From: Magnetospirillum gryphiswaldense MSR-1 v2
GTDB lineage: Bacteria; Pseudomonadota; Alphaproteobacteria; Rhodospirillales; Magnetospirillaceae
Length of the DNA stretch: 64,000 bases
Direction: 5' to 3'
Assembly: GCF_000513295.1 (NCBI RefSeq)
Contig: NC_023065.1
Span: 2,402,501-2,466,500 of the forward strand
The translations under genes were made by a program, and so were the position numbers. This document shows, piece by piece, positions 16,831 to 62,563 of the stretch. The notes under the pieces were generated by a model. It ran no database searches and was not told the DNA's origin. It was given only the letters and a program-made list of their open reading frames with translations. Position 1 is the first letter of the stretch. Each line of letters opens with the position of its first letter.

Positions 16831-16880
16831 GATTTTCTCCACATCCCCCACAAATTATAAAAGCCATCCGTACCCGACAC

Positions 16881-23697: not shown

Positions 23698-23704
23698 GGG
23701 TCTA

Positions 23705-24770: not shown

Positions 24771-24771
24771 T

Positions 24772-24796
24772 AGCCGCCGATCGGGGCGGCTTTTTT
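24772..24796 (+). terminator. Terminator-like hairpin left at the IS630 right junction
   Basis: A 7-bp stem agccgcc (24772-24778) / ggcggct (24785-24791) followed by six T. It reads on the plus strand, but the native plus-strand gene it served is not present: on its left lie only the IS and a minus-strand gene. This hints that DNA was lost when the IS arrived. Confidence 0.5.
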
Positions 24797-43100: not shown

Positions 43101-45215
43101 CTACAAGAATGTCCCGCCGATTCGGCTGGCGGCCAGGGCCAGCAGCCAAGCGAAGGACAGGGAATAGACCACCGAGAATCCGGCCCAACGCCAGCTCTGC
43201 GCCTCCTTGCCGATGATCGCGATGGTCGACAGGCAAGGCGCGTAGAGCAAGGTGAAGATCATGAAGGCGATGGCCGTGGCGGGCGGCATGGCGTTCTTCA
43301 AGGTCTCGGTCAGTTCCTCCGACCCCTTTTCCTGGGCATAGATGACGGCATAGGTCGCCACCACCACTTCCTTGGCGACGAAGCCGGTCATGATGGCCGC
43401 CGAATCCCGCCAGGAAAAGCCCAGAGGCTCGAACAGCGGTGCCACAGCGATGGCCGAACGCCCCAGATAGCTCTTTTCCAGCTTCTCCTGCGCCTGGGCG
43501 CTTTTCAGCGTCTTCAGCGCCGTTTCCTTTTCCGGGCTGTCGGGAAGCGTGGTCTGTTCGGCGATGACCGTCTCGAAATCCTGGGAATAGGTGATATCGC
43601 GGGGGAACTCCTGGAGGAACCAGATCACGATGGAGCCCACCAGGATGACGCCGGTTACCTTGGCGACAAAGCCCTGGGCGCTGTCCCACATATGGTGCAG
43701 CACCGAATGCAGGGTCGGCAGGCGATAGGGCGGCAGTTCCATCACGAAGGCGTCGCCACCGCTGCCGGGGATGATGCGGTTCAGCAACACCGCCGACACC
43801 ATGGCGGCGACCAGGGACAGCATATACATGGCGAAGACCACGGTGCCGGCCATATCGGCGAAGAAAGCTCCGGCGAACAGGATGAAGACCGGCAGTCGGG
43901 CCGAGCAGTTCATGAACGGCGCGATCAGCATGGCGATCAGACGCGCCCGCTTATTGGTGATGACGCGGGTGGCCATGACGGCGGGGACATTGCAGCCGAA
44001 GCCGGCCACCATGGGGATCAGGGTAGTGCCGTGCAGGCCGAAATGATGCATCACCCGGTCCATCAGGAAGCTGGCGCGGGCCAGATAGCCGGTGCCGCTG
44101 AGGATGGCCATGAAGAAGAACAGAATGACGATATTGGGCAGGAACACGATGGTTCCGCCGACGCCGGCCATGACGCCGTTGACCACGAGATCGTGGAACA
44201 TGCCCTCGGGCAGGGTCTTGTCCACCAGATCGGTGGCAATCTGAACCAAAGCTTTGATCCAGTCGGTGGGAATGGCACCCAGGCTGAAAGTCGTCTCGAA
44301 CATCACCCACAAAATGCCCAGCAGCAGGGGCAGGCCCAAGGTGCGGTTCAGGAAGAAATCGTCGAGGATGCGGGTCAGCTTGAATCCGGCGGTGGGGTCG
44401 CCCTCCTGCTGGCGGGCTTCGCGCAGCAGGCCGTTGGCAAAGGCGAACCTCGCCGAGGCCAGCAGGCCGGCGGTGTCCTCATCATGCTCGTGGACCAGGG
44501 CTGTCTGCTCGGCCTTGATCTCCTCGACCAGTTCGACATGGTTGCTTTCGTGGCGCAGAACCTCGTCATCGCCTTCCAGCATCTTGATCGCCAGCCAGCG
44601 CGAGCGCACCGGGCTCAGCTCCTGGGGGTGCAGCTTGGACAGATGCTGCTGGACGCGCTCGATGGCCGCCTCCAGATGGCTGTCATAGTGTAGCCGCAAC
44701 GGGGCGGCGGCGGGGGTTGCCGAGGCCATGGCCGCCACCGCGTCCAGCAGGGCATCGATGCCCTCCTTCTTCAGGGCGCAGGTCTCCACCACCGGCGATC
44801 CGAGGGCCGAGGCCAATAGGGCGGTGTCGATGCGAATACCGGCCCGCCGGACCTCGTCCATCATGTTCAGCACGGTGATGCGGGGCAGCCCGGTCTCGAT
44901 CAGCTGGGTGGTCAGGAACAGGCTGCGGTCCAGATGGCCGGCATCCAGCACGTTGACGATGATGTCGGGTTCCTCGCCGTGAATATAGTCGCAGCCGACC
45001 TTCTCCTCCGGCGATTGCGACGAGGTGGAAAAAATGCCCGGCACATCGACGATGCGCAGGCTGACCCCGCCATGGGTGATCTCGCGCACATTCAAAGAGG
45101 TCGTCACCCGCTGATAGTTGGCGACGGCGGATTGGGCGCCTGTCAGGGCATTGAACAAGCTGGTGGAACCGGCATTCGGGTTACCCACCAGTGCCACGGT
45201 GACGGGGGATTTCAT
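43101..45215 (-). CDS. feoB: Ferrous iron transporter FeoB (magnetosome-island type) with altered P-loop
   Basis: The 704-aa protein has an N-terminal GTPase domain, a helical GDI-like spacer and two Gate/core membrane halves (GTGYLARASFLMD, GFGCNVPAVMATR, and a later NCSARLPVF). It imports Fe(II) through the inner membrane. Motifs: G1 is GNPNAGSTS (residues 11-19), where the Lys expected at position 17 is Ser; G3 is DVPG (57-60); G4 is NMMD (117-120). The missing P-loop Lys is unusual and may lower GTP binding. It follows feoA by 36 bp. Spacing, order and the magnetosome-gene context match the island-borne feoAB of magnetospirilla. Confidence 0.93.
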   Translation of the reverse strand: MKSPVTVALVGNPNAGSTSLFNALTGAQSAVANYQRVTTSLNVREITHGGVSLRIVDVPGIFSTSSQSPEEKVGCDYIHGEEPDIIVNVLDAGHLDRSLFLTTQLIETGLPRITVLNMMDEVRRAGIRIDTALLASALGSPVVETCALKKEGIDALLDAVAAMASATPAAAPLRLHYDSHLEAAIERVQQHLSKLHPQELSPVRSRWLAIKMLEGDDEVLRHESNHVELVEEIKAEQTALVHEHDEDTAGLLASARFAFANGLLREARQQEGDPTAGFKLTRILDDFFLNRTLGLPLLLGILWVMFETTFSLGAIPTDWIKALVQIATDLVDKTLPEGMFHDLVVNGVMAGVGGTIVFLPNIVILFFFMAILSGTGYLARASFLMDRVMHHFGLHGTTLIPMVAGFGCNVPAVMATRVITNKRARLIAMLIAPFMNCSARLPVFILFAGAFFADMAGTVVFAMYMLSLVAAMVSAVLLNRIIPGSGGDAFVMELPPYRLPTLHSVLHHMWDSAQGFVAKVTGVILVGSIVIWFLQEFPRDITYSQDFETVIAEQTTLPDSPEKETALKTLKSAQAQEKLEKSYLGRSAIAVAPLFEPLGFSWRDSAAIMTGFVAKEVVVATYAVIYAQEKGSEELTETLKNAMPPATAIAFMIFTLLYAPCLSTIAIIGKEAQSWRWAGFSVVYSLSFAWLLALAASRIGGTFL

Positions 45216-47132: not shown

Positions 47133-47639
47133 ATGCCTTTGCGTCTTCATTCTATGCCCGCTGGCCAGGGTTGCCCTATGAACGGAAGCTCCGCTTTAGG
47201 GAGCAAGGCGGGTGCCTTAAAAGGTCTTGGTGCAAAGACCGGGTCTGGGGCGGGGCTGGGCCTCGGGCAATGCAGTACCACGACTGTTGGCAAAATGGCT
47301 GTGGGCGCCAAAGGCGTTCCAATAGGATGGGGGGCAGGCGCAGGGGCAGGAACCGGAGCAGGTACCGGTCTGGGCGGCATTGGGCCATGTGGCACCGCTG
47401 TCGGCAAGGTGGTTGTGGGAGCCAAGTCAGCCACTCCCATAGTGTGGAGCACCGGAGCTGGTGCTGCCTCAGGTCATGGGATCAGTTTGGGTCTAGGCCT
47501 TGGACTTGGGGCATGGGGGCCGGTTTTACTGGGGGCTGGCATTGCTGCACTCGGCTATTACCTCTATGCCAACCGGAACCGAAAGCCCATCCCTAACAAA
47601 GACGAATTGGCGGTAGCCTTAAACGACGCAGCCTGCTGA
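47133..47639 (+). CDS. Leu-Gly-repeat magnetosome protein 2 (Mms5/Mms6/MamD family)
   Basis: The 168-aa protein has a Gly-rich first part (GLGLGQCSTTTVGK, GAGAGTGAGTGLGG), then the [16 protein letters not shown] hallmark (about residues 121-136), one helix and a tail NRNRKPIPNKDELAVALNDAAC. The D/E-containing tail is nearer to Mms6 than that of the paralogue at 41634, though less acidic. It sits 34 bp after the CZB gene. A decayed third paralogue, with a closely related tail, is found just beyond the IS66 at 50309-50435. The 156 bp between its stop and the IS66 hold no gene I can name. Confidence 0.8.
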   Translation: MPLRLHSMPAGQGCPMNGSSALGSKAGALKGLGAKTGSGAGLGLGQCSTTTVGKMAVGAKGVPIGWGAGAGAGTGAGTGLGGIGPCGTAVGKVVVGAKSATPIVWSTGAGAASGHGISLGLGLGLGAWGPVLLGAGIAALGYYLYANRNRKPIPNKDELAVALNDAAC

Positions 47640-47896
47640 TCCGGAAATTCCTCTGCTAAAGTGCGAGCGGCTCTTGTGGCCGTAATGAACTGGGTGAACT
47701 CGCCGACGGCGTAACAAGTGAGGCTTTGCCCCCGACCGAAAGCGCGCCGGCTCCGGTCTCAGGTCATTAGTTAGCGCTTCGTATTGAGGTTCACCGTATC
47801 CCTCCGGCGTGGACCGCCTTCCCGGCCGGGTGAGCTTCGGCGAAGCTGATCGCCTGATTGGCGTTGAAGTTGGCGGAAGTGTCCACGGATTCATTT

Positions 47897-48262
47897 ATGG
47901 ACAGAAACTCGACCGGGCGGCGGCGGAACCGTTCTTGGCCTGAGGATCTGAAGCGGGAGATCGTCGCGGCGACCTACGAGCCCGGGGCCTCTGTGGCCGG
48001 GGTGGCGCGGCGGTACGGGGTCAACGACAATCAGGTTTTCACTTGGCGCAAGCGTTTCGGGGGACAACAGGGCGAGACGGTGCCGGCCCATATGGTGCCG
48101 GTGGTGGTGGCCGAGGACATGGCGGCCTCCGGGCGGAAGGAAGCCTCTTCTTCTGCCGGCGTGGTGGAGATCGATCTGGCTGGTGGCTACCGTGTCCGTG
48201 TCGGCGATGGTGTCGGTGCCCAGCTGCTGTGCCGGGTCTTGGACGTGCTGGAGCGGCGATGA
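47897..48262 (+). CDS. tnpA: IS66 TnpA (OrfA)
   Basis: A 121-aa accessory protein with a helix-turn-helix (SWPEDLKREIVAATYEPGASVAGVARRYGVNDNQVFTWRKRF) typical of IS66 OrfA. Its stop overlaps the tnpB start (ATGA). The frame is open 13 codons upstream, but ATG 47897 fits the family. Confidence 0.88.
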   Translation: MDRNSTGRRRNRSWPEDLKREIVAATYEPGASVAGVARRYGVNDNQVFTWRKRFGGQQGETVPAHMVPVVVAEDMAASGRKEASSSAGVVEIDLAGGYRVRVGDGVGAQLLCRVLDVLERR

Positions 48263-48606
48263 TCCCGGTTCCGACGGGCGTCCGGGTCTGGCTGGCGGTC
48301 GGGCGGACGGACATGCGGCGCGGCATGAACGGCTTGGCGCTGCAGGTGCAGGAGGCGCTCGGCCGCGATCCCCACGCCGGTGACCTGTTCGTTTTCCGGG
48401 GTGCTCGGGGGGATCTGATCAAGGTCCTTTGGCACGACGGCCTGGGCATGTCGCTGTACGCCAAGCGCCTGGAGAAGGGGCGGTTCATCTGGCCCTCTCC
48501 GGCTGACGGCGTGGTGGCGATCTCGTCGGCCCAACTGGCCTACATGCTCGACGGGATCGACTGGCGCAACCCGCGCCACACCTTCCGCCCGCGAAGTGCC
48601 GGATAG
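48259..48606 (+). CDS. tnpB: IS66 TnpB (OrfB)
   Basis: A 115-aa protein with the IS66 OrfB signature TDMRRGMNGLALQVQEALGRDPHAGDLFVFRGARGDLIKVLWHDG. It is required with TnpA and TnpC for transposition in studied IS66 members and is translationally coupled to tnpA. Confidence 0.92.
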   Translation: MIPVPTGVRVWLAVGRTDMRRGMNGLALQVQEALGRDPHAGDLFVFRGARGDLIKVLWHDGLGMSLYAKRLEKGRFIWPSPADGVVAISSAQLAYMLDGIDWRNPRHTFRPRSAG

Positions 48607-48663
48607 GGCGGAAACCCACATTTTTAGCGAGTCAGCGGCCGGGTTTTATGATTCCATTGGGGC

Positions 48664-50271
48664 ATGGAAATCGGCCGCGAGACCCCGACAGACGACATCG
48701 ACGCCCTGAGGGCGGAGCTGGCGGTCGCGCGCGCCAGGGCCGCCGAGGACCAGGCGCTGATCGCGCACCAGAAGCTGCAGATCGAGAAACTGAAGCGCGA
48801 ACTCTACGGCCCCCAGGCGGAACGCTCGGCCCGCCTGATCGACCAGATGGAGCTGGCGTTCGAGGAACTGGCGGCGGCGGCCACCGAGGACGAGATCACC
48901 GCCGAGAAGGCCGCGGCGCGCACCACCAACGTGGCGGCCTTCACCCGCAACCGGCCTGCCCGCAAGCCGTTTCCCGAGCATTTGCCGCGCGAGCGGGTGG
49001 TCGAGCCGGCTCCGTCGGCCTGCTCCTGCTGCGGCGGTGACCGTCTGCGCAAGATCGGCGAGGACGTCACCGAGACCCTGGAGGTGATCCCGCGCCAGTG
49101 GAAGGTCATCCAGCGGGTCCGCGAGAAGTTCAGCTGCCGGGACTGCGAGAAGATCAGCCAGGCGCCGGCGCCCTTCCATGTGACCCCGCGCGGCTGGGCC
49201 GGCCCCAGCCTGCTGGCCATGATCCTGTTCGAGAAGTTCGGGCAGCACCAGCCGCTGAACCGCCAGGCCGAGCGCTATGCCAAGGAGGGTGTGCCGCTCA
49301 GCCTGTCCACGCTGGCCGACCAGGTGGGCGCCGGCTGCGCCGCCCTGGAGCCGTTGATCCGGCGCATCGAGGCCCATGTGTTTGCCGCCGCGCGTCTGCA
49401 TGGCGACGACACCACGGTGCCCGTCCTGGCGAAGGGCAAGACCGACACCGGCCGATGTTGGGTCTATGTCCGCGACGACCGCCCCTTCGGCGGACCGGCA
49501 CCACCGGCGGCCATGTTCTACTATTCGCGCGACCGGAGAGGTGAACACCCCCAGGCCCATCTCGCTGGGTATGCCGGGCTGCTCCAGGCGGACGCCTATG
49601 GGGGCTATGGCGCACTCTACCTGCCCGACCGAAAACCCGGGCCAATCCTGGAGGCCGCCTGCTGGGCGCATGCGAGGCGTCCGTTCTTCGCCCTAGCCGA
49701 CCTGGCGGCCAATGCCCGCCGCAAGGCCGAGGGCCGGGCTGCCTCGGTGATCTCGCCCCTGGCGCTGGAGGCGGTCCGGCGCATCGACGCCCTGTTCGAG
49801 ATCGAGCGCGCCATCAGCGGCCAGGACGCCGACCGGCGGCGGGCGATCCGCCAGGAGCTCAGCGCCCCCCTGGTCGCCGACCTGGAACGATGGCTGACGG
49901 AGAAGCGCGCCGGTCTGTCGCGAGGCAACGATCTTGCCAAGGCCATGGACTACATGCTGAAACGCTGGCCCGCCTTCACCCGCTTCCTCGACGACGGCCG
50001 CGTCTGCATGACCAACAATTCCGCCGAACGCGCCCTTCGTGGCATCGCGCTCGGCCGGAAGTCCTGGCTCTTCGCCGGGTCCGACCGCGGTGGACAGCGT
50101 GCCGCCTCCATGTACAGCCTCATCGTCACAGCCAAGATGAACGACATCGATCCGCAAGCCTGGCTGGCCGATGTCCTTGCACGGATCGCGGGTCACCCCG
50201 CCAGCCGCATCGACGAACTCCTGCCCTGGAACTGGCGGAACGCCAACCCGGCCTCCGCCGTCGCCGCCTGA
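48664..50271 (+). CDS. tnpC: IS66 TnpC transposase
   Basis: The 535-aa DDE transposase has an N-terminal leucine-zipper-like coil, a Cys zinc-binding module (CSCCGG...CRDCEK), and the IS66 catalytic core: DDTTVPVL with the first Asp, ADAYGGYGAL with the second, and NNSAERALRGIALGRKSWLFAGS near the Glu. The C-terminal IDELLPWNW motif is intact, so the enzyme looks functional. Confidence 0.93.
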   Translation: MEIGRETPTDDIDALRAELAVARARAAEDQALIAHQKLQIEKLKRELYGPQAERSARLIDQMELAFEELAAAATEDEITAEKAAARTTNVAAFTRNRPARKPFPEHLPRERVVEPAPSACSCCGGDRLRKIGEDVTETLEVIPRQWKVIQRVREKFSCRDCEKISQAPAPFHVTPRGWAGPSLLAMILFEKFGQHQPLNRQAERYAKEGVPLSLSTLADQVGAGCAALEPLIRRIEAHVFAAARLHGDDTTVPVLAKGKTDTGRCWVYVRDDRPFGGPAPPAAMFYYSRDRRGEHPQAHLAGYAGLLQADAYGGYGALYLPDRKPGPILEAACWAHARRPFFALADLAANARRKAEGRAASVISPLALEAVRRIDALFEIERAISGQDADRRRAIRQELSAPLVADLERWLTEKRAGLSRGNDLAKAMDYMLKRWPAFTRFLDDGRVCMTNNSAERALRGIALGRKSWLFAGSDRGGQRAASMYSLIVTAKMNDIDPQAWLADVLARIAGHPASRIDELLPWNWRNANPASAVAA

Positions 50272-50308
50272 CGCCGCCCCCCCCCTGCGTCCTTCACCGG
50301 ATGGATAC

Positions 50309-50435
50309 GGCAAAGCGGGCGCGGTGAAAGGGCTTGGAGCAAAAGCTGAAGCTGGAGCCTCGGGCCAACCGGGACCGAAAGCCTGCACCTCCAAAGGACG
50401 AATTGGCGGCGCCTTTGGACGACTCCGCATCTTGA
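50309..50435 (+). pseudogene. Relic of a third Leu-Gly-repeat (Mms6-like) gene
   Basis: Directly after the IS66 end, one frame reads GKAGAVKGLGAKAEAGASG, close to KAGALKGLGAKTGSGAG of the 47133 gene. In a shifted frame, 50367-50435 reads NRDRKPAPPKDELAAPLDDSAS then stop, close to that gene's tail NRNRKPIPNKDELAVALNDAAC. The Gly-rich middle, the LG repeat and the helix are deleted, and the 5' end is cut by the IS. The gap to 50487 contains nothing else. Confidence 0.75.
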
Positions 50436-50487
50436 CGCTTTGATTGGCGTAGCCGCTTCGGTAATGCCGCGAGAAAAAGGGCAAGGC

Positions 50488-51453
50488 TCAGGAAAAGAAC
50501 GAAAACAACGCCTTCTTTGGCGGCAAAGCCGGAGTCGCATCGATTTTGGCCGCCGTCTTAAGGATGACATCCATACCTGGAATGCCGATGGAAGGAGCCT
50601 TGGCCGATTTGATCAGGTGCGATGTCCAGTCGCGAACATGAAAATCCGGGCTGACCGCCAATACCTTCAGCAGATCCGACCCCTCCGGCCGGGTAAAATC
50701 ATCCTTGGTCAGGATCAGGTTCTCGCCGTTGTGGTGGCAGCGGAACAACTCCGGCCCAAAGGTCAAAGCCCGCAATGACAGCAAAATGACCAACATGGAA
50801 AAGTGATCGATGGCGGCATCGAAATGCCGAACGTCGCGCTTGGGGTGCTGGAAATTGATGCCGCCCAACATGGTCGAGGGCAGCCCCTTCAATTCGGGCA
50901 GGTACATGGAATCATAGTCGATCAGCTTCAGGCGGCCGTCCTGGCTGACCAGGATATTGTCATGCTTCAAATCGCCATGGGCGATGCCGCGTTGTAGCAG
51001 ATCCAGGCACAGACGGCTCCAGGCCCGAGTCAACCCGGCCAGCGCCGCGGCATTACCCCTTTGGCACAGGATCTCAGCGACAGCGCCAATACTGCGACCG
51101 TCGATCCATGGCATGGTCACCACCGCATAATCAGCATGGGGGGCGACGCGGGATGTGACAAACACCTCGGCCGACAGAAATTGCAGAGGCACCACATAGG
51201 GGCACTGGGCGGACCGGCAAAATTTTGCGACAGCGGAATATCGGCGCGGCAGATCGGGCACTTCACGGGTGAAGCACTTGATGGCGAGATGTTCCCCGTC
51301 CCTGGTCACGACCCTGAACACACCGGCAAAATTGCCGGCCAGGAAAACCGGGCTGCGGCGGGCATCCAGACGCGGCTCGAATTCCAAAGTCGCAAACCGC
51401 CCCTTGGCATTGGCGATGGCCGTCTTGTAGTCGTTGATCAGGGGAAGGGGCAT
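50488..51453 (-). CDS. Protein kinase-like enzyme (TerY-P type module 2)
   Basis: The 321-aa kinase is paralogous to the one at 39226 with the same motifs: Lys59 (LAIKCF), HGDLKHDN (Asp161, Asn166) and IDYD. It ends after the kinase core and lacks the SHOCT tail of copy 1. It follows the PP2C gene with a 6-bp gap, itself after the VWA gene, so all three parts of a TerY-P-like triad are present here in one operon. Confidence 0.8.
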   Translation of the reverse strand: MPLPLINDYKTAIANAKGRFATLEFEPRLDARRSPVFLAGNFAGVFRVVTRDGEHLAIKCFTREVPDLPRRYSAVAKFCRSAQCPYVVPLQFLSAEVFVTSRVAPHADYAVVTMPWIDGRSIGAVAEILCQRGNAAALAGLTRAWSRLCLDLLQRGIAHGDLKHDNILVSQDGRLKLIDYDSMYLPELKGLPSTMLGGINFQHPKRDVRHFDAAIDHFSMLVILLSLRALTFGPELFRCHHNGENLILTKDDFTRPEGSDLLKVLAVSPDFHVRDWTSHLIKSAKAPSIGIPGMDVILKTAAKIDATPALPPKKALFSFFS

Positions 51454-51459
51454 TGAGGA

Positions 51460-52365
51460 TCACCGGTTCCGGGTAAGATCGACATCGATCATGATCAGTG
51501 TGGCATCGTCATTGGCCAGCAATCCTTTATCGCAGAGTGCGCGGATACGCACGGCGAAAGACATATCCGATTTCAGGCAATCGCGCAGCGTCGCCAATTC
51601 GCCGGATATGCCTGGGCCCGGCGTGGCGCGGTGGGCACGGGCGGCCTGCCCAAGCTTGCTCTCGCCACCGCTTAACCTCATGAACTCATTCAACATTCCG
51701 CCAGAAGCCTGGGACCTTGGAAGACTGGCCAGGGTCCGCAGCAGCAGATACTGACCAATTCCGTCCGAGGCCAGAACCACCGTCGCCCGATCCGGCAACA
51801 CCATCTCGCCCCCATGAAGGCTGGCCTCACGCGGCATGTCTTTCCAATTAAGCAAAAAGGGGGCGCGGTCCAGCGCCGAAAGTGTCGCCGGATAGCTAGC
51901 GGCCAGAGCCGGCTGCCGCCCCGTCCGGTCGAACACCATAAGCTGGCTGTCGCCATAGCCCAGCCATTGCAGCATGGCGCGCCCCCGCCGATAAGCCAAC
52001 CACCCCGCCACCAGCGTTGCGAATGAACCTTCCCGGATGAATTTACTGTGCCGGGCCGGGGTAGCCTTGGACAGAGCGGCATGATCCGCACGAAAGTTCA
52101 GACAGAATCCATCCATCCACTGGTTCAGCGCCTTCATGCTCGTGATGGGAGTCTTGGGCAGCCGCGTCACCAGAGTCTCTGCCCAAGGACCGCAGAACAG
52201 CCCCGCGCCGCCAGCCCCATCCGAAACCGCCGCCAACAGACCATCAGGCGTCCTCGTCAGCCGCAGCCGGTCCTCGTTCTGCCGCCACAGCAGTTGGTCG
52301 CCGCTGGCGAAGCTGTCATTACGGGGCTTAACGACCGATCGGCCCTGGGCGGTCCATGAGAGCAT
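51460..52365 (-). CDS. PP2C-like Ser/Thr phosphatase (module 2)
   Basis: About 301 aa from ATG 52365; in-frame TTG codons upstream (to 52416) would overlap the VWA gene and are possible starts. PP2C metal motifs are present: SDGAGGAG, GSFATLVAGW, WLGYGDSQL, VVLASDGIGQ, and NDDATLIMIDVD near the end. It should reverse the phosphorylation made by the adjacent kinase. Module 1 has no such gene. Confidence 0.8.
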   Translation of the reverse strand: MLSWTAQGRSVVKPRNDSFASGDQLLWRQNEDRLRLTRTPDGLLAAVSDGAGGAGLFCGPWAETLVTRLPKTPITSMKALNQWMDGFCLNFRADHAALSKATPARHSKFIREGSFATLVAGWLAYRRGRAMLQWLGYGDSQLMVFDRTGRQPALAASYPATLSALDRAPFLLNWKDMPREASLHGGEMVLPDRATVVLASDGIGQYLLLRTLASLPRSQASGGMLNEFMRLSGGESKLGQAARAHRATPGPGISGELATLRDCLKSDMSFAVRIRALCDKGLLANDDATLIMIDVDLTRNR

Positions 52366-52393
52366 GGGAAGGCATTTCCGAAGCAATGGCTGA

Positions 52394-53374
52394 CTAACCT
52401 TGATCCCCGAATTCAACCTGCATCACGGGTTCTTCAATCTCGAAGGACTCGACGACAACCAGGTCGGAAACCGCCCCCAGCGCCACATGGGGCTCGAAGG
52501 GAGTAGAAACGCCGATGGCCTGACGGGTGCCGATATCCAGCAGTTTGAGCAGCGCCGTGGCGTCGGCATTGTATGCCATGCCTTTGATGATCGGCGCACT
52601 TGCCATATCGCGCTCGAACACCTCGCAGATAACGGCGCGATGCCGGTTGGACAATTCGCTCGACATGTCGAACAGCAGCTTGGCATAGGGATCGCGCGGC
52701 AATTCCGCTGCGGATGAGGGAAACACCACCGGCGCATCAGTCCCGCCCGCAATGTGGCAGTTGATCAGCAGCACATTCCCGTCGCAGGTCTTCAAACCGG
52801 TCAAATTCCGCGATGTCGCCAGAAGCTCGGCATCCGTATTGACGTCGTTGGCCATTCCGTCGGTGACATTGATGACCACCGGAGGGAACGAGTCCGGATT
52901 GTGTCGAACCCACTCGTCCAGGGTGGAATGGGCGAGACGGAAGGCGGCATTCATGGGGGTGCTGTCCACTCCCACCGGATCGATCCAACGCGAAAGGGTG
53001 AGCCGCTCGATCAGGACCTGCCCACGCACCTCGGTTTCGATGTCCACCTCTTCGATCTCCGCGTTGTCGGCCACCTCCGAGATGGGAACCAGCCGACGAC
53101 CAGCCAAGGCACCCCGCCAGCAGAACTCCGGGCGGTTGGTGCGGCCATAACCGATGATGCCGATGTCGAAATAATCGCGCACGCCTTCGTCGCGCATGCA
53201 GCGGTTGACCAGTTCCTCCAAGGTGCCGTTCAGGGCATTGGCGACCACCACGGCGCGGCTGACCATCCGTCCAGACTGATCGGGGCCAAACTCCTTGTTC
53301 ATGGATCTCGACTGATCAACCAAGAACAGGAACACCCCCTTGCACTCCCTGCTGATTTCCTGGGAATAGCTCAT
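52394..53374 (-). CDS. TerY-like VWA-domain protein (module 2)
   Basis: The 326-aa VWA protein has MIDAS residues DQSRS (Asp20, Ser22, Ser24), Thr in STPMN and Asp in VTDGMA. It is a paralogue of the 40386 protein with a longer acidic C-terminus (VVVESFEIEEPVMQVEFG). It is the first gene of the VWA-PP2C-kinase operon and is divergent from mamY. The VWA protein probably presents or scaffolds the kinase substrate. Confidence 0.82.
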   Translation of the reverse strand: MSYSQEISRECKGVFLFLVDQSRSMNKEFGPDQSGRMVSRAVVVANALNGTLEELVNRCMRDEGVRDYFDIGIIGYGRTNRPEFCWRGALAGRRLVPISEVADNAEIEEVDIETEVRGQVLIERLTLSRWIDPVGVDSTPMNAAFRLAHSTLDEWVRHNPDSFPPVVINVTDGMANDVNTDAELLATSRNLTGLKTCDGNVLLINCHIAGGTDAPVVFPSSAAELPRDPYAKLLFDMSSELSNRHRAVICEVFERDMASAPIIKGMAYNADATALLKLLDIGTRQAIGVSTPFEPHVALGAVSDLVVVESFEIEEPVMQVEFGDQG

Positions 53375-53676
53375 GCTCGCCTCCTGGTCGCTCAGTCAGC
53401 CATGACAAGTGCACGACCCACAACATGTTGATATTTAGCGATTACCATAATCGCCCCACGCATGTACACAGCCATATTAGGCAATGCAGGTCCTCACAAA
53501 CAAAAGGCGGTGTTGCGATTAATGCGCATCTTCCGGTATTGACGGACTCGCCACAAAGCCATATCTATCCCTTGTGTCCAAGCTACCTTGCCGGTCAGCT
53601 TGCTGTTACTGTGGCAGTATCCTATACACACCAGAACATTTTGGCGACCACCACAGCCACCACGGGAGCAGCCCTT
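53375..53676. promoter_or_regulatory. Divergent regulatory gap in front of mamY
   Basis: About 300 bp with markedly AT-rich sequence separates the VWA gene and mamY. The mamXY operon promoter must lie here. The frame of mamY stays open back to 53425 but without a ribosome-binding site, and the codons there do not look coding. No specific operator could be recognised. Confidence 0.5.
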
Positions 53677-54792
53677 ATGTTGATGAACTTTGTCAACAAT
53701 GTATCAAAGACGATTAACGGAGGAGCCCGCATCGTATATGTCGGATCGTTCTCCTGGGCTGTCTTATCACTTCTTTTTGTCACCGCTTTCAGTGGCTGGA
53801 ATAATATTTTCTCAATGCTCCCCCACGAGATTTTTATTCTAGTTCTAACCATTTCACTTCCGATTGCTCTGATTGTTTTGATCTTCATGCTCTCGCAGAT
53901 TGTGAGAACCGTCGAGAGCGTGAAGTCTGAAATTTCCACCCTGTCCCAGCGGGATCCTGTTTCCGAAGAGGCGGTCACCATGCTGGCCGATCTGTTCCGC
54001 GAACATCGCGATGCCGTTGCCGCCCAGGTGGCAGCCCAAGTCGAGGCCACCGCCCAGTTGGTCCAGATCAATCAGGACAACCGCGCCCTCGCCGCGCCCT
54101 CGCCGGATTCAGGCGACGAAAACCCCCTGGCCTTGCTGGCCCAAATGTTCCGCGAATACCGCGAGACAGTGACGGCGCAGCTGGAAGCGCAAATCTCGGC
54201 CACCACCCAGTTGGTGGAGGCAAGCCGTGACAGCCGCGACGGCATCGTCGATGAACTGCGCTCCCAACGGGTTCTGTCCCAGGAAATCACCCAAGAACTA
54301 TCCCATATCGCCCAAAGCCGGAATGTGGTTCCGGTCGCCGAGCCCGGCCTCGACCCGTCGCAGCGGATCGACCGCATGCGGGCGTTGGCGGAGGTGCTGG
54401 GGCTGGCCCTCAATGACCTCAGCATGACCGCAACCCAGCTCCTGAGCGAGCACCTGAACGCGGCCCATGGCGACAGGGAGGGAACACAAAAGTTTATTTC
54501 GACCCTGACTAACGCCTATTTCGCGGGTGACAAGAACGTCTTTTTCCGCAGCTTGGTCAGCGAGGTCGTCAACCATTCCGACCAATTGCAGCAATGCGCG
54601 ATTGGTGCCGAGAATGTGCGCCAGCAGATTTCCAAAATCCTGCGCGAGGCCCGTGAGATCCGCTCGCTGGTGTCCGCCTGCGACCCTAATGATCTGGTCC
54701 GGATCGTCTTCGAGGATGGCGAGTTGTGGGCCTTGGAAAAGGCCCTGGCCGAGCACTTCCTCATCGATGGAACCCCCATCTCCGATGCGTGA
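53677..54792 (+). CDS. mamY: MamY, magnetosome membrane-shaping protein
   Basis: The 371-aa protein starts at ATG 53677 (GGGAG upstream), which gives the length I recall for MamY. Two transmembrane helices lie near residues 19-40 and 51-73. A helical cytoplasmic part then carries a tandem repeat: LADLFREHRDAVAAQ...QVEATAQLVQ (103-136) and LAQMFREYRETVTAQ...QISATTQLVE (154-187), period 51. MamY binds and bends the magnetosome membrane (BAR-like) and, in other strains, sets vesicle size or chain position. It is first gene of mamY-mamX-mamZ-ftsZm, 162 bp before mamX. Confidence 0.9.
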   Translation: MLMNFVNNVSKTINGGARIVYVGSFSWAVLSLLFVTAFSGWNNIFSMLPHEIFILVLTISLPIALIVLIFMLSQIVRTVESVKSEISTLSQRDPVSEEAVTMLADLFREHRDAVAAQVAAQVEATAQLVQINQDNRALAAPSPDSGDENPLALLAQMFREYRETVTAQLEAQISATTQLVEASRDSRDGIVDELRSQRVLSQEITQELSHIAQSRNVVPVAEPGLDPSQRIDRMRALAEVLGLALNDLSMTATQLLSEHLNAAHGDREGTQKFISTLTNAYFAGDKNVFFRSLVSEVVNHSDQLQQCAIGAENVRQQISKILREAREIRSLVSACDPNDLVRIVFEDGELWALEKALAEHFLIDGTPISDA

Positions 54793-54954
54793 CGAAAGCC
54801 GACGTCCGAAATTGCATGGCCGCCATTTCCAGCTACGGTCCAGACGGAAGGCCGATGGTCATTCCATTGCGTATGGGAATATGAGATACTTCGGCACTTT
54901 CATCGCTAGCGCATCGGGAATCGGTAGCTCCACTTTGACCACAGTCGAACTCCC

Positions 54955-55764
54955 GTGAACACCAAAGCCGTTGCACATCCCGACATCGCCGTCTGGATCA
55001 TGGCGTTGGGCATTGCCTTCAGCATGGCCCTAGTTCTGACCGCGCTGTTCAATGCCAATCCGTGGGAAGATCACACCTACGATCTGGCGCCTCCCATTGT
55101 CGCTGGGATGGCCGCCCCCCATCGCGATGGCCGCGAGAAGATGGTCTGCTCCAGCTGCCATATCGTCACCCCCGCTTCCGCCGCTACCGGTCCGGGCGCG
55201 GGCACGCTGCCCATCGTTGAGGGAACCCCGGCGCCGCATGTGGATGGACGCGAGAAGATGGCCTGCGCCAGTTGCCACACCATCGTGAAGAAGGGCAGCG
55301 TTGCCAAGAGCGGCAAGGCAAGCCCCGCTCCGGTGGCATTCTCGCAGGGCATGCCCTTACCCGAGGCGATGAGCGTGGCGCTGGCGGTTACCCCGGCACC
55401 GGCGCCCCTGGGCAACGAAGCGCATGAGCGGATGGTGCCCTTCCGCTATCAAGGCAAGATCGTCAGCGTGGCGGGCGCTGGCACCCGCTCGGTCTGGGGT
55501 GATATCTATATTCAGATCAACGATGGGATCAATCCTCCCATGTGGATCGACCTTGCCCCGCTCTGGTTCCTGCAAGCGGAGGGCTGCTTGGTCCGTCCCG
55601 GTATGTTCGTCAAGGGCACCGCCTTCCGCGACCCGACCCAGGCGAGCGCCGGGCTGGATTACGCCATGAGCGTCATGGCCAATGGCGAAGTCTGTGCCCT
55701 GCGTGACGACCATCTCAACGGCCTGTGGGCTAATGTTGGAGGCGTGGATGCCGAAGAGCGGTAA
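54955..55764 (+). CDS. mamX: MamX, dihaem magnetochrome protein
   Basis: The 269-aa protein starts at GTG 54955. It has one N-terminal helix (about 11-33) and two CxxCH haem c sites in the magnetochrome arrangement: CSSCH (65-69) and CASCH (104-108), each followed by a short APH-DGREKM-type repeat. A C-terminal OB/lipocalin-like beta part is rich in Trp and Gly. MamX probably transfers electrons for iron redox balance in the magnetosome lumen. Its 3' end overlaps mamZ by 17 nt. Confidence 0.93.
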   Translation: MNTKAVAHPDIAVWIMALGIAFSMALVLTALFNANPWEDHTYDLAPPIVAGMAAPHRDGREKMVCSSCHIVTPASAATGPGAGTLPIVEGTPAPHVDGREKMACASCHTIVKKGSVAKSGKASPAPVAFSQGMPLPEAMSVALAVTPAPAPLGNEAHERMVPFRYQGKIVSVAGAGTRSVWGDIYIQINDGINPPMWIDLAPLWFLQAEGCLVRPGMFVKGTAFRDPTQASAGLDYAMSVMANGEVCALRDDHLNGLWANVGGVDAEER

Positions 55765-57679
55765 ACCCTCCACCGGCACGACACCGGCTGACTTCGCTCC
55801 CACCCAATGGAATATCATCTATCTGCTGATGACCGTGGGCTCTCTGGTGGCCGCGCTGTCCATCTCTATCCAGCCCCTGCTGCTGGATAAGATTTTCGGC
55901 ATTGCCTTCGAAAAAGAGGGCGCGGTCAACGCCGATATTCAGGTGGTGGCAGAGATCGTCTCCATCGTCTGCGTGGGATGGTTCGGCCTGCTATCCGATC
56001 GGATTGGCCGGGTTCGGATCATCGCCACGGGCTTCCTGATCGCGGTGGCTGGCGCGGCCATGTCCCTGCTCAGCCTGCAAATTGGGCTCGCCTTCGGTGC
56101 CGCCGGGCTGGTGCTGTTCTATCTGACCCGGGTGCTGCTGACAGTGGGGGCCGATACCGTCCAGTTGCAGCTTTCCACCCTGGTGGGCGATGTCTCCTCG
56201 CGGGCCAACCGGCCGCGCCTGATGGGAAATTTGGTGTTCATGATGGTCTTCGGCGGCACCATGCTGTCGGCCATCATCATGCAGATGGCCGATTATAAGG
56301 GCGGTGTGTTCATCATCATGTGCCTGCCGCTGCTGATCGGCATCGCCGGGTTCCAGATGACGCGCGAATCCTTGCGGGATGTAGCACAGCCCCAGCAAGC
56401 GCCCACGGGAGACGAGCATCCCCTTCGGCAAGTCTGGTCGGTGATCACCAGCGACCCGCGCTTGCAATTGGCCTTCGCCGCCGCCTTCTACACCCGCGCC
56501 GACGTGATCATCCTCAGCCTTTTCTTCTCGCTGTGGTGCATTTCCGTGTCGGATCTGGTGGGGGTGACCCGCACCTACGCCACCGCCCATGCCGCCGTGA
56601 TGATCGGTCTATTGGGGCTGGCGGTTCTGGCGGCAATCCCGCTGTGGCGATCCTTCATCGAGCGCCACAGCCGCATTTCCGCCATCGGGGCCAGCCTTTC
56701 CCTGGCGGCGGTCGGCTATATCTGGCTCGGAATGTTCGCCAATCCCTTCAACTGGCTGGTGGCCTTGCCGTTGCTGATGGTAGGCATCGGCCATGCCGGA
56801 TGTTTCGTGACTCTTCAGGTCCTGACTGTGGACGTCTCGCCCAAGCCGATCCTGGGCGCCATGGTTGGGGCGGGCTATCTGGTGGGCGGCCTTGGCACCG
56901 TCATGCTGGTGCAAAGTGGCGGCTATTATTTCGATGCGCTTGGCCCGCGCGCGCCATTCATCCTGATGGGAACCGGCAAGATGCTGGTGACCCTCTACGC
57001 CGCCTGGCTGCTGGCCAACGGCATTGATGAGACCTGCGATCACCACCTTAAATCCACCCGCAAGGTGGATTGGAAGCCGCTGGTGTTCCTGACCGCGGCC
57101 CTCCCCTTCGTCTGGCTGATCGGGCGCAGCGTTATCGAAGGATATTTCTCCAACGGCTCTCTGGGCGAGGCCCCGGTCGGTTTCGTCAACCGCTATTTGG
57201 GCGATTGGGCCTTCACCTTCTTGATCATCTCGCTGTCCATGCGCCCGGTGCAGGAGATTACTGGCATCAAGTCCCTGGCCAAGTACCGGCGCATGATCGG
57301 CCTGTTCGCCTTTTTCTACGCGGTATTGCACGTTCTGGCCTATGTCACCCTGGAATGGGCGCTTAATCTGGGCGACATGGCGAGCGACATCTACAAGCGG
57401 CCATTCATTCTGCTCGGCCTGGCGGCCTTCCTCCTGCTGATCCCCCTGGCCTTCACCTCCACCAACAGCCAGATCAAGAAGATCGGCGGCAAACGCTGGA
57501 AAAGGCTGCATAGGGCCACCTATGTCATCAATGCCCTGGTGGCGCTGCATTTCATCCTTGCTGCCAACCACGAGAATGGCGAACCCTATGTCTATGCGGC
57601 GGCCGTCATAGTTCTTCTGTGGTACCGTTTCTACCAGTGGCGGGGCGGCAATGTGCTGCGCGCCCTGCGAATCGGCTAA
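55748..57679 (+). CDS. mamZ: MamZ, MFS transporter fused to ferric-reductase-like domain
   Basis: The 643-aa membrane protein starts at ATG 55748 (GGAGG upstream). Residues about 20-420 form a major-facilitator domain ([20 protein letters not shown] motif A). Residues about 450-640 form a YedZ/ferric-reductase-like domain with haem-ligand candidates in [11 protein letters not shown] and [19 protein letters not shown]. It is thought to import iron into the magnetosome and adjust its redox state together with MamX, whose gene overlaps it by 17 nt. Confidence 0.93.
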
Positions 57680-57720
57680 ATGGTATTTTTGGCGTTGAAC
57701 CCATTAGCTTCTGCGAAGAC

Positions 57721-58656
57721 ATGACAATGATACGTCCCAGAATCATCGTGATCGGCGTCGGTGGCGCGGGCGGCAATGCCGTCAACAACATGATTCTGTC
57801 CAAGATCGAGGGCGTGGAATTCATAGCCGCCAATACGGACGCCCAAGCCCTGGGGTTAAGCTTGGCCGACCGGCGCATTCCGCTTGGAGGCTATGTCACC
57901 AAAGGCCTGGGTGCGGGGTCACGTCCCGAACTGGGCCGCTCGGCTGCCCAAGAGAGCATCGACGACATCCTGACCGCTATCGACGACGCCAATATGGTGT
58001 TCATTACCGCCGGCATGGGCGGCGGAACCGGTTCCGGCGCCGCTCCGGTCATTGCCCAGGCCGCGCGCGAGCGGGGCATCCTGACCATCGGCGTGGTCAC
58101 CAAGCCCTTCCACTTCGAGGGTGGTCATCGCATGGGCACGGCCGAAGCCGCCATTGAGGAATTGCAGCACGTCGTCGACACCCTGATCATCATCCCCAAT
58201 CAGAACCTGTTTCGCATCGCCTCTGAACGCACCACCTTCATTGATGCCTTCAAGATGGCCGACAACGTTCTGAATTCCGGCGTGCGTAGCGTCACCGATC
58301 TGGTAGTGAAGCCCGGGCTCATCAATTTGGATTTCGCCGATATTCGCATAGTTATGAGCGAGATGGGCAAGGCCATCATGGGCACCGGCGAGGCCGAGGG
58401 CGAACCGCGCGCCGTCAAGGCCGCCGAGGCAGCCATCTCCAACCCGCTCTTGGGCGACACCTCCATCGCGGGGGCCAAGGGAGTGCTGATCAACATCACT
58501 GGCGGCATGGACATGACGCTGTTCGAGGTGGACGAGGCCGCCAACCGTATCCGCACCGAAGTGGCGCCCGACGCCAATATCATCTTCGGATCCACTTTCG
58601 ACGAGAAGCTGGACGGCAAGATGCGGGTCTCGGTGGTCGCCACCGGTATCGCCTGA
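57721..58656 (+). CDS. ftsZm: FtsZm, magnetosome-associated truncated FtsZ paralogue
   Basis: The 311-aa tubulin-like GTPase starts with [23 protein letters not shown]. The tubulin signature GGGTGSG is at residues 100-106, and it ends right after the globular domain (VSVVATGIA). It therefore lacks the linker and conserved C-terminal peptide of division FtsZ that binds FtsA/ZipA. Paralogues in mamXY operons polymerise and are implicated in magnetite rather than essential division. It is the last gene of the operon; a possible alternative start is ATG 57733. Confidence 0.93.
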
Positions 58657-58671
58657 GCCGCTCCGGAAGAA

Positions 58672-58903
58672 TCAAGCATCGGCGGCCCTCAGCAGGCGCA
58701 ATCCATTGAAGGCCAGCAGAAGAGCAGCTCCCATATCCGCCGCAATGGCTCCCCATAAGGTGGCGATATCAAAAACCGCCAACACCATGAAGACGGCCCT
58801 CAACGCGATGGCGAAGCCGATATTCTGGCGGATGACGGCGATCATCCGGCGGGAATGCCCCACCAGCCAAGCCCGCCGGGTCAGGTCGTCCGACATCAGC
58901 GCC
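58672..58903 (-). pseudogene. C-terminal fragment of a P1B-type heavy-metal ATPase
   Basis: The about 77 residues left read LALMSDDLTRRAWLVGHSRRMIAVIRQNIGFAIALRAVFM..., then WGAIAADMGAALLLAFNGLRLL. This is the end of CadA/ZntA-type metal exporters (last membrane pair). Everything upstream, including the CPC and DKTGT motifs, has been removed at an IS5-type end beginning at 58904. It is convergent with ftsZm, 16 bp away. The missing 5' part is not found at the far side of the IS cluster. Confidence 0.75.
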
Positions 58904-58924
58904 AGCTGGACGCCTCCAAAAACC
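58904..58924 (+). repeat. Left inverted repeat of a dead IS5-family element
   Basis: The 21 bases 58904-58924 (agctggacgcctccaaaaac...) are the exact reverse complement of 63717-63737. They lie where the ATPase homology stops. Reading inward, both copies continue with similar GGCG sequence. I take them as the ends of the IS5-type element that carries the broken transposase at 62630-63658. Confidence 0.6.
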
Positions 58925-58970
58925 TCGGCGCTGGCCTGATTTTGGCCTGATCGGATCGGCTGTGGTGTTA

Positions 58971-60036
58971 GAGCATTTTCACATCGAGCGTCCATATCCG
59001 TCGTGGGCGAAGAAATTGGCGCATTCCTCGGGCGGAAACAGGTCGATGAGTTTTCCGATCACGTCCCATAAGGTGTTGATGGTGCGGGCTTGCGCCTTTC
59101 GCAGCAGGCTCTTGAGCTTGGCGAAGGCGAGCTCGATGGGATTGAGGTCTGGGGAGTAGGGCGGCAGATACCGCAGGGTGGCCCCTCGGGCTTCGATGAG
59201 TTGCTTGACCCCTGCCACCTTGTGGGCGGGCAGATTGTCCATTACGACGATGTCGCCGGGCCGCAAGGTCGGAGCCAGGACCTGCTCGACATAGGCCAGG
59301 AAGATCGCGCCATTCATCGCCTTGTCGATGACGAAGGGGGCGGAGATTCCGTCATGCCGGAGCGCCCCGACGAAGGTGGTCATTTTCCAATGACCGTGCG
59401 GCACCGCAGCCAGCAGCCGCTGACCGCGCGGCGCCCGTCCGTAGCGCCGGGTCATGTTGGTCGATGCCCCGGTTTCATCAAGGAAGACCAAGCGGGTTGG
59501 GTCCAGCGCCGGCTGCTCGGCTCGCCAGGCGATGCGTCCTTCGGCTACGTCGGGACGTTCCTGCTCGGCAGCATGCGCACTCTTTTTTTCAGACTGAGGT
59601 CGAGCCGCTCAAGCGTGTTCCACAGGCCGCCGACGCTGATCGACACGCCCAATTCGGCCAGAACCCAGGCGCGCAACTCAGCCAGCGTGGCATCGGGCTC
59701 GACCTTGATCTGCGCCTGCAACGCCTCAAGGTGAGCCGCCAGCTTCTGTCCTGGCCGCCCAGGCCGTGGCTTCACCGTCGTCTCGCCGGTGGCCCGGCGG
59801 CGGCCTTGGGCCTTGTAGATGTACGAAACGCTCACCCGGAACAGCGGCGCCACCTCGTAGGCGCTCATGCCGCTGTCCACAGCCGCCAAAACTCTATCGC
59901 GCAAGTCCTGAGAATAGGACTGCCCTGAGCGCCACGTCATCGCATCATCCTCGGGAGCGTTGTTACCGAAGATGTTGAATCACAAAATGACCTCAGGGGG
60001 AATCCTCTACCGATTCCGCTCGGCGTGAAACCGCTC
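58971..60036 (-). mobile_element. IS630-family insertion sequence, copy 2 (1066 bp), inverted
   Basis: Same length and ends as copy 1, on the opposite strand, flanked by TA at 58969-58970 and 60037-60038. The TA used as target lies inside the left GTTAGTCA target duplication of the IS66 that starts at 60043, so this copy arrived after that IS66. Confidence 0.92.
58979..59940 (-). CDS. IS630-family transposase, copy 2 (two frames, -1 frameshift)
   Basis: Encodes the same two protein parts as copy 1: helix-turn-helix part 59545-59940 and DDE part 58979 to about 59582. They are joined at the A7 run (T7 on the plus strand, 59583-59589). Motifs [15 protein letters not shown] and [11 protein letters not shown] are intact, so it could be active. 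Confidence 0.88.
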
Positions 60037-60143
60037 TAGTCAGTATCCCTCCGGCGTGGACCGCCTTCCCGGCCGGGTGAGCTTCGGCGAAGCTGATCGC
60101 CTGATTGGCGTTGAAGTTGGCGGAAGTGTCCACGGATTCATTT

Positions 60144-60509
60144 ATGGACAGAAACTCGACCGGGCGGCGGCGGAACCGTTCTTGGCCTGAGGATCTGAAG
60201 CGGGAGATCGTCGCGGCGACCTACGAGCCCGGGGCCTCTGTGGCCGGGGTGGCGCGGCGGTACGGGGTCAACGACAATCAGGTTTTCACTTGGCGCAAGC
60301 GTTTCGGGGGACAACAGGGCGAGACGGTGCCGGCCCATATGGTGCCGGTGGTGGTGGCCGAGGACATGGCGGCCTCCGGGCGGAAGGAAGCCTCTTCTTC
60401 TGCCGGCGTGGTGGAGATCGATCTGGCTGGTGGCTACCGTGTCCGTGTCGGCGATGGTGTCGGTGCCCAGCTGCTGTGCCGGGTCTTGGACGTGCTGGAG
60501 CGGCGATGA
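60144..60509 (+). CDS. tnpA: IS66 TnpA, copy 2
   Basis: A 121-aa OrfA, translation identical to copy 1 over its whole length; ATGA overlap with tnpB. Confidence 0.88.
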   Translation: MDRNSTGRRRNRSWPEDLKREIVAATYEPGASVAGVARRYGVNDNQVFTWRKRFGGQQGETVPAHMVPVVVAEDMAASGRKEASSSAGVVEIDLAGGYRVRVGDGVGAQLLCRVLDVLERR

Positions 60510-60853
60510 TCCCGGTTCCGACGGGCGTCCGGGTCTGGCTGGCGGTCGGGCGGACGGACATGCGGCGCGGCATGAACGGCTTGGCGCTGCAGGTGCAGGA
60601 GGCGCTCGGCCGCGATCCCCACGCCGGTGACCTGTTCGTTTTCCGGGGTGCTCGGGGGGATCTGATCAAGGTCCTTTGGCACGACGGCCTGGGCATGTCG
60701 CTGTACGCCAAGCGCCTGGAGAAGGGGCGGTTCATCTGGCCCTCTCCGGCTGACGGCGTGGTGGCGATCTCGTCGGCCCAACTGGCCTACATGCTCGACG
60801 GGATCGACTGGCGCAACCCGCGCCACACCTTCCGCCCGCGAAGTGCCGGATAG
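60506..60853 (+). CDS. tnpB: IS66 TnpB, copy 2
   Basis: A 115-aa OrfB, translation identical to copy 1, with the TDMRRGMNGLAL and FRGARGDLIKVLWHDG motifs. Confidence 0.92.
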   Translation: MIPVPTGVRVWLAVGRTDMRRGMNGLALQVQEALGRDPHAGDLFVFRGARGDLIKVLWHDGLGMSLYAKRLEKGRFIWPSPADGVVAISSAQLAYMLDGIDWRNPRHTFRPRSAG

Positions 60854-60910
60854 GGCGGAAACCCACATTTTTAGCGAGTCAGCGGCCGGGTTTTATGATT
60901 CCATTGGGGC

Positions 60911-62518
60911 ATGGAAATCGGCCGCGAGACCCCGACAGACGACATCGACGCCCTGAGGGCGGAGCTGGCGGTCGCGCGCGCCAGGGCCGCCGAGGACCAG
61001 GCGCTGATCGCGCACCAGAAGCTGCAGATCGAGAAACTGAAGCGCGAACTCTACGGCCCCCAGGCGGAACGCTCGGCCCGCCTGATCGACCAGATGGAGC
61101 TGGCGTTCGAGGAACTGGCGGCGGCGGCCACCGAGGACGAGATCACCGCCGAGAAGGCCGCGGCGCGCACCACCAACGTGGCGGCCTTCACCCGCAACCG
61201 GCCTGCCCGCAAGCCGTTTCCCGAGCATTTGCCGCGCGAGCGGGTGGTCGAGCCGGCTCCGTCGGCCTGCTCCTGCTGCGGCGGTGACCGTCTGCGCAAG
61301 ATCGGCGAGGACGTCACCGAGACCCTGGAGGTGATCCCGCGCCAGTGGAAGGTCATCCAGCGGGTCCGCGAGAAGTTCAGCTGCCGGGACTGCGAGAAGA
61401 TCAGCCAGGCGCCGGCGCCCTTCCATGTGACCCCGCGCGGCTGGGCCGGCCCCAGCCTGCTGGCCATGATCCTGTTCGAGAAGTTCGGGCAGCACCAGCC
61501 GCTGAACCGCCAGGCCGAGCGCTATGCCAAGGAGGGTGTGCCGCTCAGCCTGTCCACGCTGGCCGACCAGGTGGGCGCCGGCTGCGCCGCCCTGGAGCCG
61601 TTGATCCGGCGCATCGAGGCCCATGTGTTTGCCGCCGCGCGTCTGCATGGCGACGACACCACGGTGCCCGTCCTGGCGAAGGGCAAGACCGACACCGGCC
61701 GATGTTGGGTCTATGTCCGCGACGACCGCCCCTTCGGCGGACCGGCACCACCGGCGGCCATGTTCTACTATTCGCGCGACCGGAGAGGTGAACACCCCCA
61801 GGCCCATCTCGCTGGGTATGCCGGGCTGCTCCAGGCGGACGCCTATGGGGGCTATGGCGCACTCTACCTGCCCGACCGAAAACCCGGGCCAATCCTGGAG
61901 GCCGCCTGCTGGGCGCATGCGAGGCGTCCGTTCTTCGCCCTAGCCGACCTGGCGGCCAATGCCCGCCGCAAGGCCGAGGGCCGGGCTGCCTCGGTGATCT
62001 CGCCCCTGGCGCTGGAGGCGGTCCGGCGCATCGACGCCCTGTTCGAGATCGAGCGCGCCATCAGCGGCCAGGACGCCGACCGGCGGCGGGCGATCCGCCA
62101 GGAGCTCAGCGCCCCCCTGGTCGCCGACCTGGAACGATGGCTGACGGAGAAGCGCGCCGGTCTGTCGCGAGGCAACGATCTTGCCAAGGCCATGGACTAC
62201 ATGCTGAAACGCTGGCCCGCCTTCACCCGCTTCCTCGACGACGGCCGCGTCTGCATGACCAACAATTCCGCCGAACGCGCCCTTCGTGGCATCGCGCTCG
62301 GCCGGAAGTCCTGGCTCTTCGCCGGGTCCGACCGCGGTGGACAGCGTGCCGCCTCCATGTACAGCCTCATCGTCACAGCCAAGATGAACGACATCGATCC
62401 GCAAGCCTGGCTGGCCGATGTCCTTGCACGGATCGCGGGTCACCCCGCCAGCCGCATCGACGAACTCCTGCCCTGGAACTGGCGGAACGCCAACCCGGCC
62501 TCCGCCGTCGCCGCCTGA
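60911..62518 (+). CDS. tnpC: IS66 TnpC transposase, copy 2
   Basis: A 535-aa DDE transposase, translation identical to copy 1, with Cys zinc module, DDTTVPVL, ADAYGGYGAL and NNSAERALRG core motifs intact. With two intact copies the family is likely still mobile in this genome. Confidence 0.93.
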   Translation: MEIGRETPTDDIDALRAELAVARARAAEDQALIAHQKLQIEKLKRELYGPQAERSARLIDQMELAFEELAAAATEDEITAEKAAARTTNVAAFTRNRPARKPFPEHLPRERVVEPAPSACSCCGGDRLRKIGEDVTETLEVIPRQWKVIQRVREKFSCRDCEKISQAPAPFHVTPRGWAGPSLLAMILFEKFGQHQPLNRQAERYAKEGVPLSLSTLADQVGAGCAALEPLIRRIEAHVFAAARLHGDDTTVPVLAKGKTDTGRCWVYVRDDRPFGGPAPPAAMFYYSRDRRGEHPQAHLAGYAGLLQADAYGGYGALYLPDRKPGPILEAACWAHARRPFFALADLAANARRKAEGRAASVISPLALEAVRRIDALFEIERAISGQDADRRRAIRQELSAPLVADLERWLTEKRAGLSRGNDLAKAMDYMLKRWPAFTRFLDDGRVCMTNNSAERALRGIALGRKSWLFAGSDRGGQRAASMYSLIVTAKMNDIDPQAWLADVLARIAGHPASRIDELLPWNWRNANPASAVAA

Positions 62519-62555
62519 CGCCGCCCCCCCCCTGCGTCCTTCACCGGATGGATAC

Positions 62556-62563
62556 GTTAGTCA
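62556..62563 (+). repeat. Right copy of the IS66 8-bp target duplication (GTTAGTCA)
   Basis: GTTAGTCA directly follows the IS66 right end. The left copy is split by the IS630: GTTA is at 58967-58970 and TAGTCA at 60037-60042, sharing the duplicated TA. Confidence 0.9.

Follow-up and report, generated by a model that had tools for sequence, protein, structure and literature searches.

In the assembly of Magnetospirillum gryphiswaldense MSR-1 analysed here, the mamXY operon is bracketed by two identical IS66 copies in direct orientation (designated here as A and B). This arrangement is best explained, with good though not full confidence, by two independent insertions and the later arrival of an IS630 element beside B. 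The bracket would be expected to permit a 12,247-bp deletion that includes mamXY, while the left edge of A would represent an exchange junction between IS66 copies. The window examined is a 64,000-nt stretch of contig NC_023065.1 (positions 2,402,501 to 2,466,500), and coordinates refer to this window unless genome positions are specified.

Two identical IS66 copies in direct orientation

When A and B, offset by 12,247 bp, were compared base by base, 0 mismatches were found over 2,513 bp, a value that is to be read as a property of the assembly, since short-read assemblies can fill identical repeats with consensus sequence; the assembly is the 2014 MSR-1 genome, obtained from Illumina and 454 reads. 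Both copies are located on the forward strand, and their sameness stops at the element ends, save for one chance G past the right end. The length, offset and direct orientation given for the pair by an earlier, sequence-only reading of this DNA were thus exact. The left terminus starts with GTATCCCTCC and the right terminus, in reverse complement, with GTATCCATCC, 16 of the first 24 bases being identical. The TnpC domains of the IS66 family were detected (Table 1), together with the accessory genes tnpA and tnpB upstream of tnpC, as is typical of this family.

The MSR-1 genome was shown to contain nine near-full-length copies of this element (2,513-2,515 bp), A and B among them, of which five tie for the top score at 100% identity, so that the identity of A and B is not special. 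The genome further contains one copy that lacks its first 253 bp, another without its first 1,494 bp, and seven diverged matches. Among the candidates scored (23 per genome) in 13 genomes of the genus, including MSR-1 itself, full-length near-identical IS66 copies were found in MSR-1 only, while the candidates elsewhere included a 208-bp piece at 99% identity (G010) and a partial copy at 84% (G011).

Table 1. Features of the IS66-bracketed mamXY region (window coordinates)
Feature	Position	Strand	Evidence or remark
LG-rich magnetosome-type ORF, intact, left of A	47133..47639	+	NCBIfam MamD, MamG and Mms6 matches, all below cut-off
Left 8-bp flank of A, GGTTCACC	47788..47795	+	Twin right of truncated copy L012, genome 2,748,337; not right of A
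IS66 copy A, complete	47796..50308	+	Identical to B; Pfam and NCBIfam domains
tnpA of A	47858-48262	+	Pfam HTH_Tnp_1
tnpB of A	48259-48606	+	Pfam TnpB_IS66
tnpC of A	48664-50271	+	Pfam DDE_Tnp_IS66, zf-IS66, LZ_Tnp_IS66; NCBIfam transpos_IS66 above cut-off
Right 8-bp flank of A, GGCAAAGC	50309..50316	+	Twin left of copy L001, genome 2,754,546, 302 kb away
Segment removable by A/B recombination (predicted)	50309..62555	+	12,247 bp = 9,734 bp unique + one IS66; arithmetic
Kinase gene	50488-51453	-	Pfam Pkinase
Two further genes	51460-52416, 52394-53374	-	No Pfam match at E 0.001
mamY, mamX, mamZ, ftsZ-like gene (mamXY operon)	53425..58656	+	NCBIfam MamY, MamX, MamZ, FtsZ above cut-off
Short ORF beside IS630	58672-58995	-	No Pfam match
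Left target duplication of B, split by IS630	GT 58967-58968, TA, then GTCA 60039-60042		
IS630 copy	58969..60039	-	Identical to 23702-24772, inverted orientation; at TA in left target duplication of B
IS66 copy B, complete	60043..62555	+	Identical to A
Right target duplication of B, GTTAGTCA	62556..62563	+	Flank comparison

Genes within the bracket

The interval between A and B spans 9,734 bp. The presence of mamYXZ and ftsZm in this interval, as previously read from the sequence, was confirmed by profile matches (Table 1). Of the VWA/PP2C/kinase operon proposed alongside them, the kinase was upheld, whereas the PP2C and VWA calls found no Pfam match at E 0.001. The supposed ATPase fragment was likewise without a Pfam match; it corresponds to the short ORF beside the IS630, which, by motif, we take to be a possible metal-ATPase C-terminus. 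The intact LG-rich ORF to the left of A is presumably mms5-like, judging by its position and motif.

The kinase gene and its neighbour (50671-53369) have diverged paralogues upstream of feoB1, at 39607-41301, with 68% and 72% DNA identity. Outside the magnetosome genes, a 3,657-codon ORF on the reverse strand (5878-16851) was found to contain internal DNA repeats, including a 67-nt family with four copies.

Separate insertion of the two IS66 copies

IS66 elements generate target duplications of 8 bp, and the 8 bp on either side of each copy were compared. As read in the assembly, B is flanked by TCTAGTCA on the left and GTTAGTCA on the right. Once the TA-flanked IS630, which ends four bases before B, is set aside, the left flank also becomes GTTAGTCA, yielding a perfect duplication. 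The duplication around B belongs to that copy and is interrupted by the IS630, which indicates that B arrived independently, downstream of the ftsZ-like gene and in the same orientation as A, and that the IS630 later entered its left target duplication. A search of 12 loci from relatives for the empty site of B gave no match beyond window position 58905.

The flanks of A (GGTTCACC on the left and GGCAAAGC on the right) do not constitute a matching pair, and the twin of the right flank was instead located beside a distant full-length copy (L001, starting at genome position 2,754,547), whose own flanks are GGCAAAGC and TCTGCGCC. When the 75 bp to the left of L001 were joined to the sequence to the right of A, retaining one GGCAAAGC, the resulting sequence matched Magnetospirillum moscoviense BB-1 (L023) without gaps at 252 of 259 positions (7 mismatches); the 75-bp half was also located at the corresponding position in PR1 (92%) and SS-4 (88%). 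These matches argue that the two halves were formerly contiguous. Furthermore, BB-1 is collinear with window positions 50309-58890 at 97% identity and has no IS66 at the A site. The gap-free match of BB-1 to the rejoined halves indicates that the IS66 at this site went into the remnant of an LG-rich gene to the left of the kinase gene; BB-1 carries this remnant as well, and it reads shorter there than in PR1 (66 codons to the first stop).

The occurrence of two identical, complete and directly oriented copies on either side of an operon is what a composite transposon would also produce, and the sequence-only reading had proposed that A, B and mamXY form such a unit, which would have arrived as a whole and could move again. 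This origin was rejected on the basis of the flanks and the empty A site of M. moscoviense, and is regarded as extremely improbable. The outer 8-bp flanks differ (GGTTCACC left of A versus GTTAGTCA right of B), and each copy's flanks point to its own insertion, in the form of a target duplication for B and a half site in the right flank of A. As the left flank of A may be misassembled, the strongest of these tests is the duplication belonging to B. In addition, M. moscoviense possesses the mamXY block without an IS66 at the A site, and this element was absent from the mamX loci of relatives (0 of 22, many of these loci being short and none covering the B site). A and B consequently appear to be two separate insertions.

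Predicted deletion of mamXY

The inner edges of both copies are supported, that of A by a half target site and the empty site of a relative and that of B by its target duplication alone, so that mamXY is probably bracketed by direct copies irrespective of what adjoins them on the outside. Given the length, the identity and the shared orientation of A and B, a homologous exchange between them, presumably dependent on RecA, would be expected to delete 12,247 bp and to leave a single IS66. The ready deletion mechanism previously put forward for this pair thus remains plausible with regard to its repeats and inner edges, the deletion itself being a prediction from sequence. Its proposed consequence, loss of magnetosome function, was too strong: according to the available parts of two reports, deletion of mamXY in MSR-1 results in an intermediate phenotype (PMC3197154, PMC7908775), and loss of the 12,247 bp would be predicted to weaken rather than abolish magnetite formation.

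Spontaneous deletions in the MSR-1 magnetosome island have been attributed to homologous recombination between repeats, as described in the accessible text of several studies (Lohsse 2011, PMC3197154; Zwiener 2021, PMC7908775; PMC7860042). For a deletion of ~47 kb, near-identical integrase stretches of ~750 bp are named as the likely cause (PMC7908775, in part), and the region downstream of mamXY is described in the consulted portion of another report as a 'virtual hotspot', with phenotypes often akin to that of a mamXY deletion (PMC7860042). These studies concern the same organism, the same island and the same type of cause. For the hotspot, however, tn-tandem (IS4/5-type) copies in the vicinity are the suspected cause, as far as the available text indicates (PMC7860042), and the pair described here is not named in the accessible parts of published accounts of spontaneous mamXY deletion or island instability. 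If the 12.2-kb deletion occurs, it would provide a concrete, PCR-testable cause of weakly magnetic, mamXY-like MSR-1 derivatives, for which the same partly available report suspects the neighbouring IS4/5-type copies (PMC7860042).

Such a deletion would not be frequent in routine passage, given that the PacBio genome of strain R3/S1, after ~15 years of subculture, is separated from that of the DSMZ strain by 11 point mutations and shows no major rearrangement, according to the available text (PMC5920173, PMC12774639). All larger insertions recovered with a gusA trap were ISMgr2 or tn-tandem, and none was IS66, in the part of that report consulted (PMC7860042). In one study, 72 of 158 Tn5 mutants located outside the island were tested for mamAB integrity, and its available text reports no spontaneous island deletion behind a phenotype.

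Within the literature on IS66 that mentions magnetosomes or the species name, the only report retrieved concerns Desulfovibrio magneticus RS-1 (PMC4287615), which presents a larger case of the same kind as the MSR-1 pair. In RS-1, according to the accessible sections of this report, an 82-kb magnetosome island located between direct IS66 repeats is readily lost, and ~90% of the recovered mutants are island deletions (PMC4287615). As described there, the RS-1 element resembles that of MSR-1 in being a three-gene IS66 (~2.4 kb in RS-1), with 100% identical direct copies around magnetosome genes and with more copies in the genome. The RS-1 pair is described as flanking the whole 82-kb island, the loss of which abolishes magnetite, whereas the MSR-1 pair flanks only mamXY (12.2 kb), with a deletion predicted from sequence and an expected loss that is partial.

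The left edge of copy A and its junction with feoAB1

Among the nine near-full-length copies, four were shown to carry perfect 8-bp duplications as they stand (L006, CAAGAGGT; L007, GTTCCTGG; L008, CCTTCTCC; L009, GTAACAAC), B carries a duplication split by the IS630, and four (A, L001, L004 and L005) have unmatched flanks. These unmatched flanks pair with one another or with the left-truncated copy L012, which ends at genome position 2,748,336 and has GGTTCACC as its right flank. Nine unmatched ends correspond to 36 pairs, for which 0.0005 chance 8-bp matches would be expected and four were observed. Pairing 8-bp target duplications across insertion sequence copies in this manner exposes untrustworthy junctions from the sequence alone.

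In this assembly, the feoAB1 region adjoins the left edge of A. As the twin of the right flank of A lies beside L001, 302 kb away, this left edge is a recombined or misassembled junction, and it is most likely an exchange between IS66 copies that was made by the short-read assembler. The adjacency of feoAB1 and mamXY should therefore not be trusted on the basis of the flank analysis. PacBio assemblies place the feoAB1/mmxF region (~10 kb) at the opposite island end and indicate that it was misplaced in the 2014 assembly (PMC5920173). A 2026 paper, in its available parts, counts more than 800 larger structural differences between the two MSR-1 assemblies and considers numerous misassemblies in the earlier one likely (PMC12774639). 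The reassembly studies report the misplacement and the likely misassemblies, whereas their accessible text does not trace the misplacement of feoAB1 to IS66 flanks (PMC5920173, PMC12774639). As far as the consulted text of the published work extends, recombination between repeats is a mechanism of a known kind, to which the present analysis adds the IS66 pair around mamXY and the proposed IS66 origin of the feoAB1 misplacement.

The segment between the truncated L012 and the full-length L001 (L019:6338-12547; genome 2,748,337-2,754,546) is 6.2 kb in length and encodes a 422-residue ORF, without a Pfam match, in addition to insertion sequence debris. The flanks would equally close if the junction were real, that is, if IS66 recombination in the 2014 culture had released this segment, as a circle, from a place between mamXY and the feoAB1 side, with re-entry at a truncated IS66 ~300 kb away. 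Such an excision predicts the observed pairing of GGTTCACC (left of A, right of L012) and GGCAAAGC (right of A, left of L001), as well as a left-truncated L012 and a full-length L001; a second reciprocal flank swap, between L004 and L005, and the proximity of feoB1 to mamXY in relatives are also in its favour. This account is nevertheless considered unlikely, as repeats of 2.5 kb lead a short-read assembler into the same errors, feoAB1 is positioned elsewhere in PacBio genomes of this strain (PMC5920173) and the assembly comparison, in the text available, regards misassemblies as likely (PMC12774639). Moreover, the segment holds other repeats, including a stretch 92-99% identical to genome positions 281,430-281,990, and could itself be a chimera, in which case the GGTTCACC pairing and the PacBio order would no longer conflict.

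With respect to gene order, three relatives (L023, L024 and L027) carry feoB1 a few kilobases upstream of the mamXY block, and the order in this assembly thus resembles a possible ancestral one. The closest relatives of feoB1 (43101-45215) and mamZ (55682-57679) differ: feoB1 is 96.1% identical to that of SO-1 (L027), 95.2% to that of BB-1 and 89.0% to that of PR1, while mamZ is 97.6% identical to that of BB-1, 96.3% to that of PR1 and 86.9% to that of SO-1, which points to a mixed ancestry of the island.

The copies L005 (genome 842,010-844,522) and L004 (genome 1,547,336-1,549,848), which lie on opposite strands, exhibit swapped 8-bp flanks (CAGATGTG and TTTTTATT), a pattern expected from either a ~705-kb inversion between the two copies or a misassembly. 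Among the 13 genomes of the genus, the only other match across the first join of their presumed empty sites was found in G005 (76%, extending 52 bp beyond the join), and no other genome matched across the second. It is quite improbable that, in the 2014 culture, IS66 had both excised and re-inserted the 6.2-kb segment flanking mamXY ~300 kb away and inverted the ~705 kb between these two other copies; if this were true, IS66 would excise and re-insert pieces of the island as circles, and the mamXY bracket would be next.
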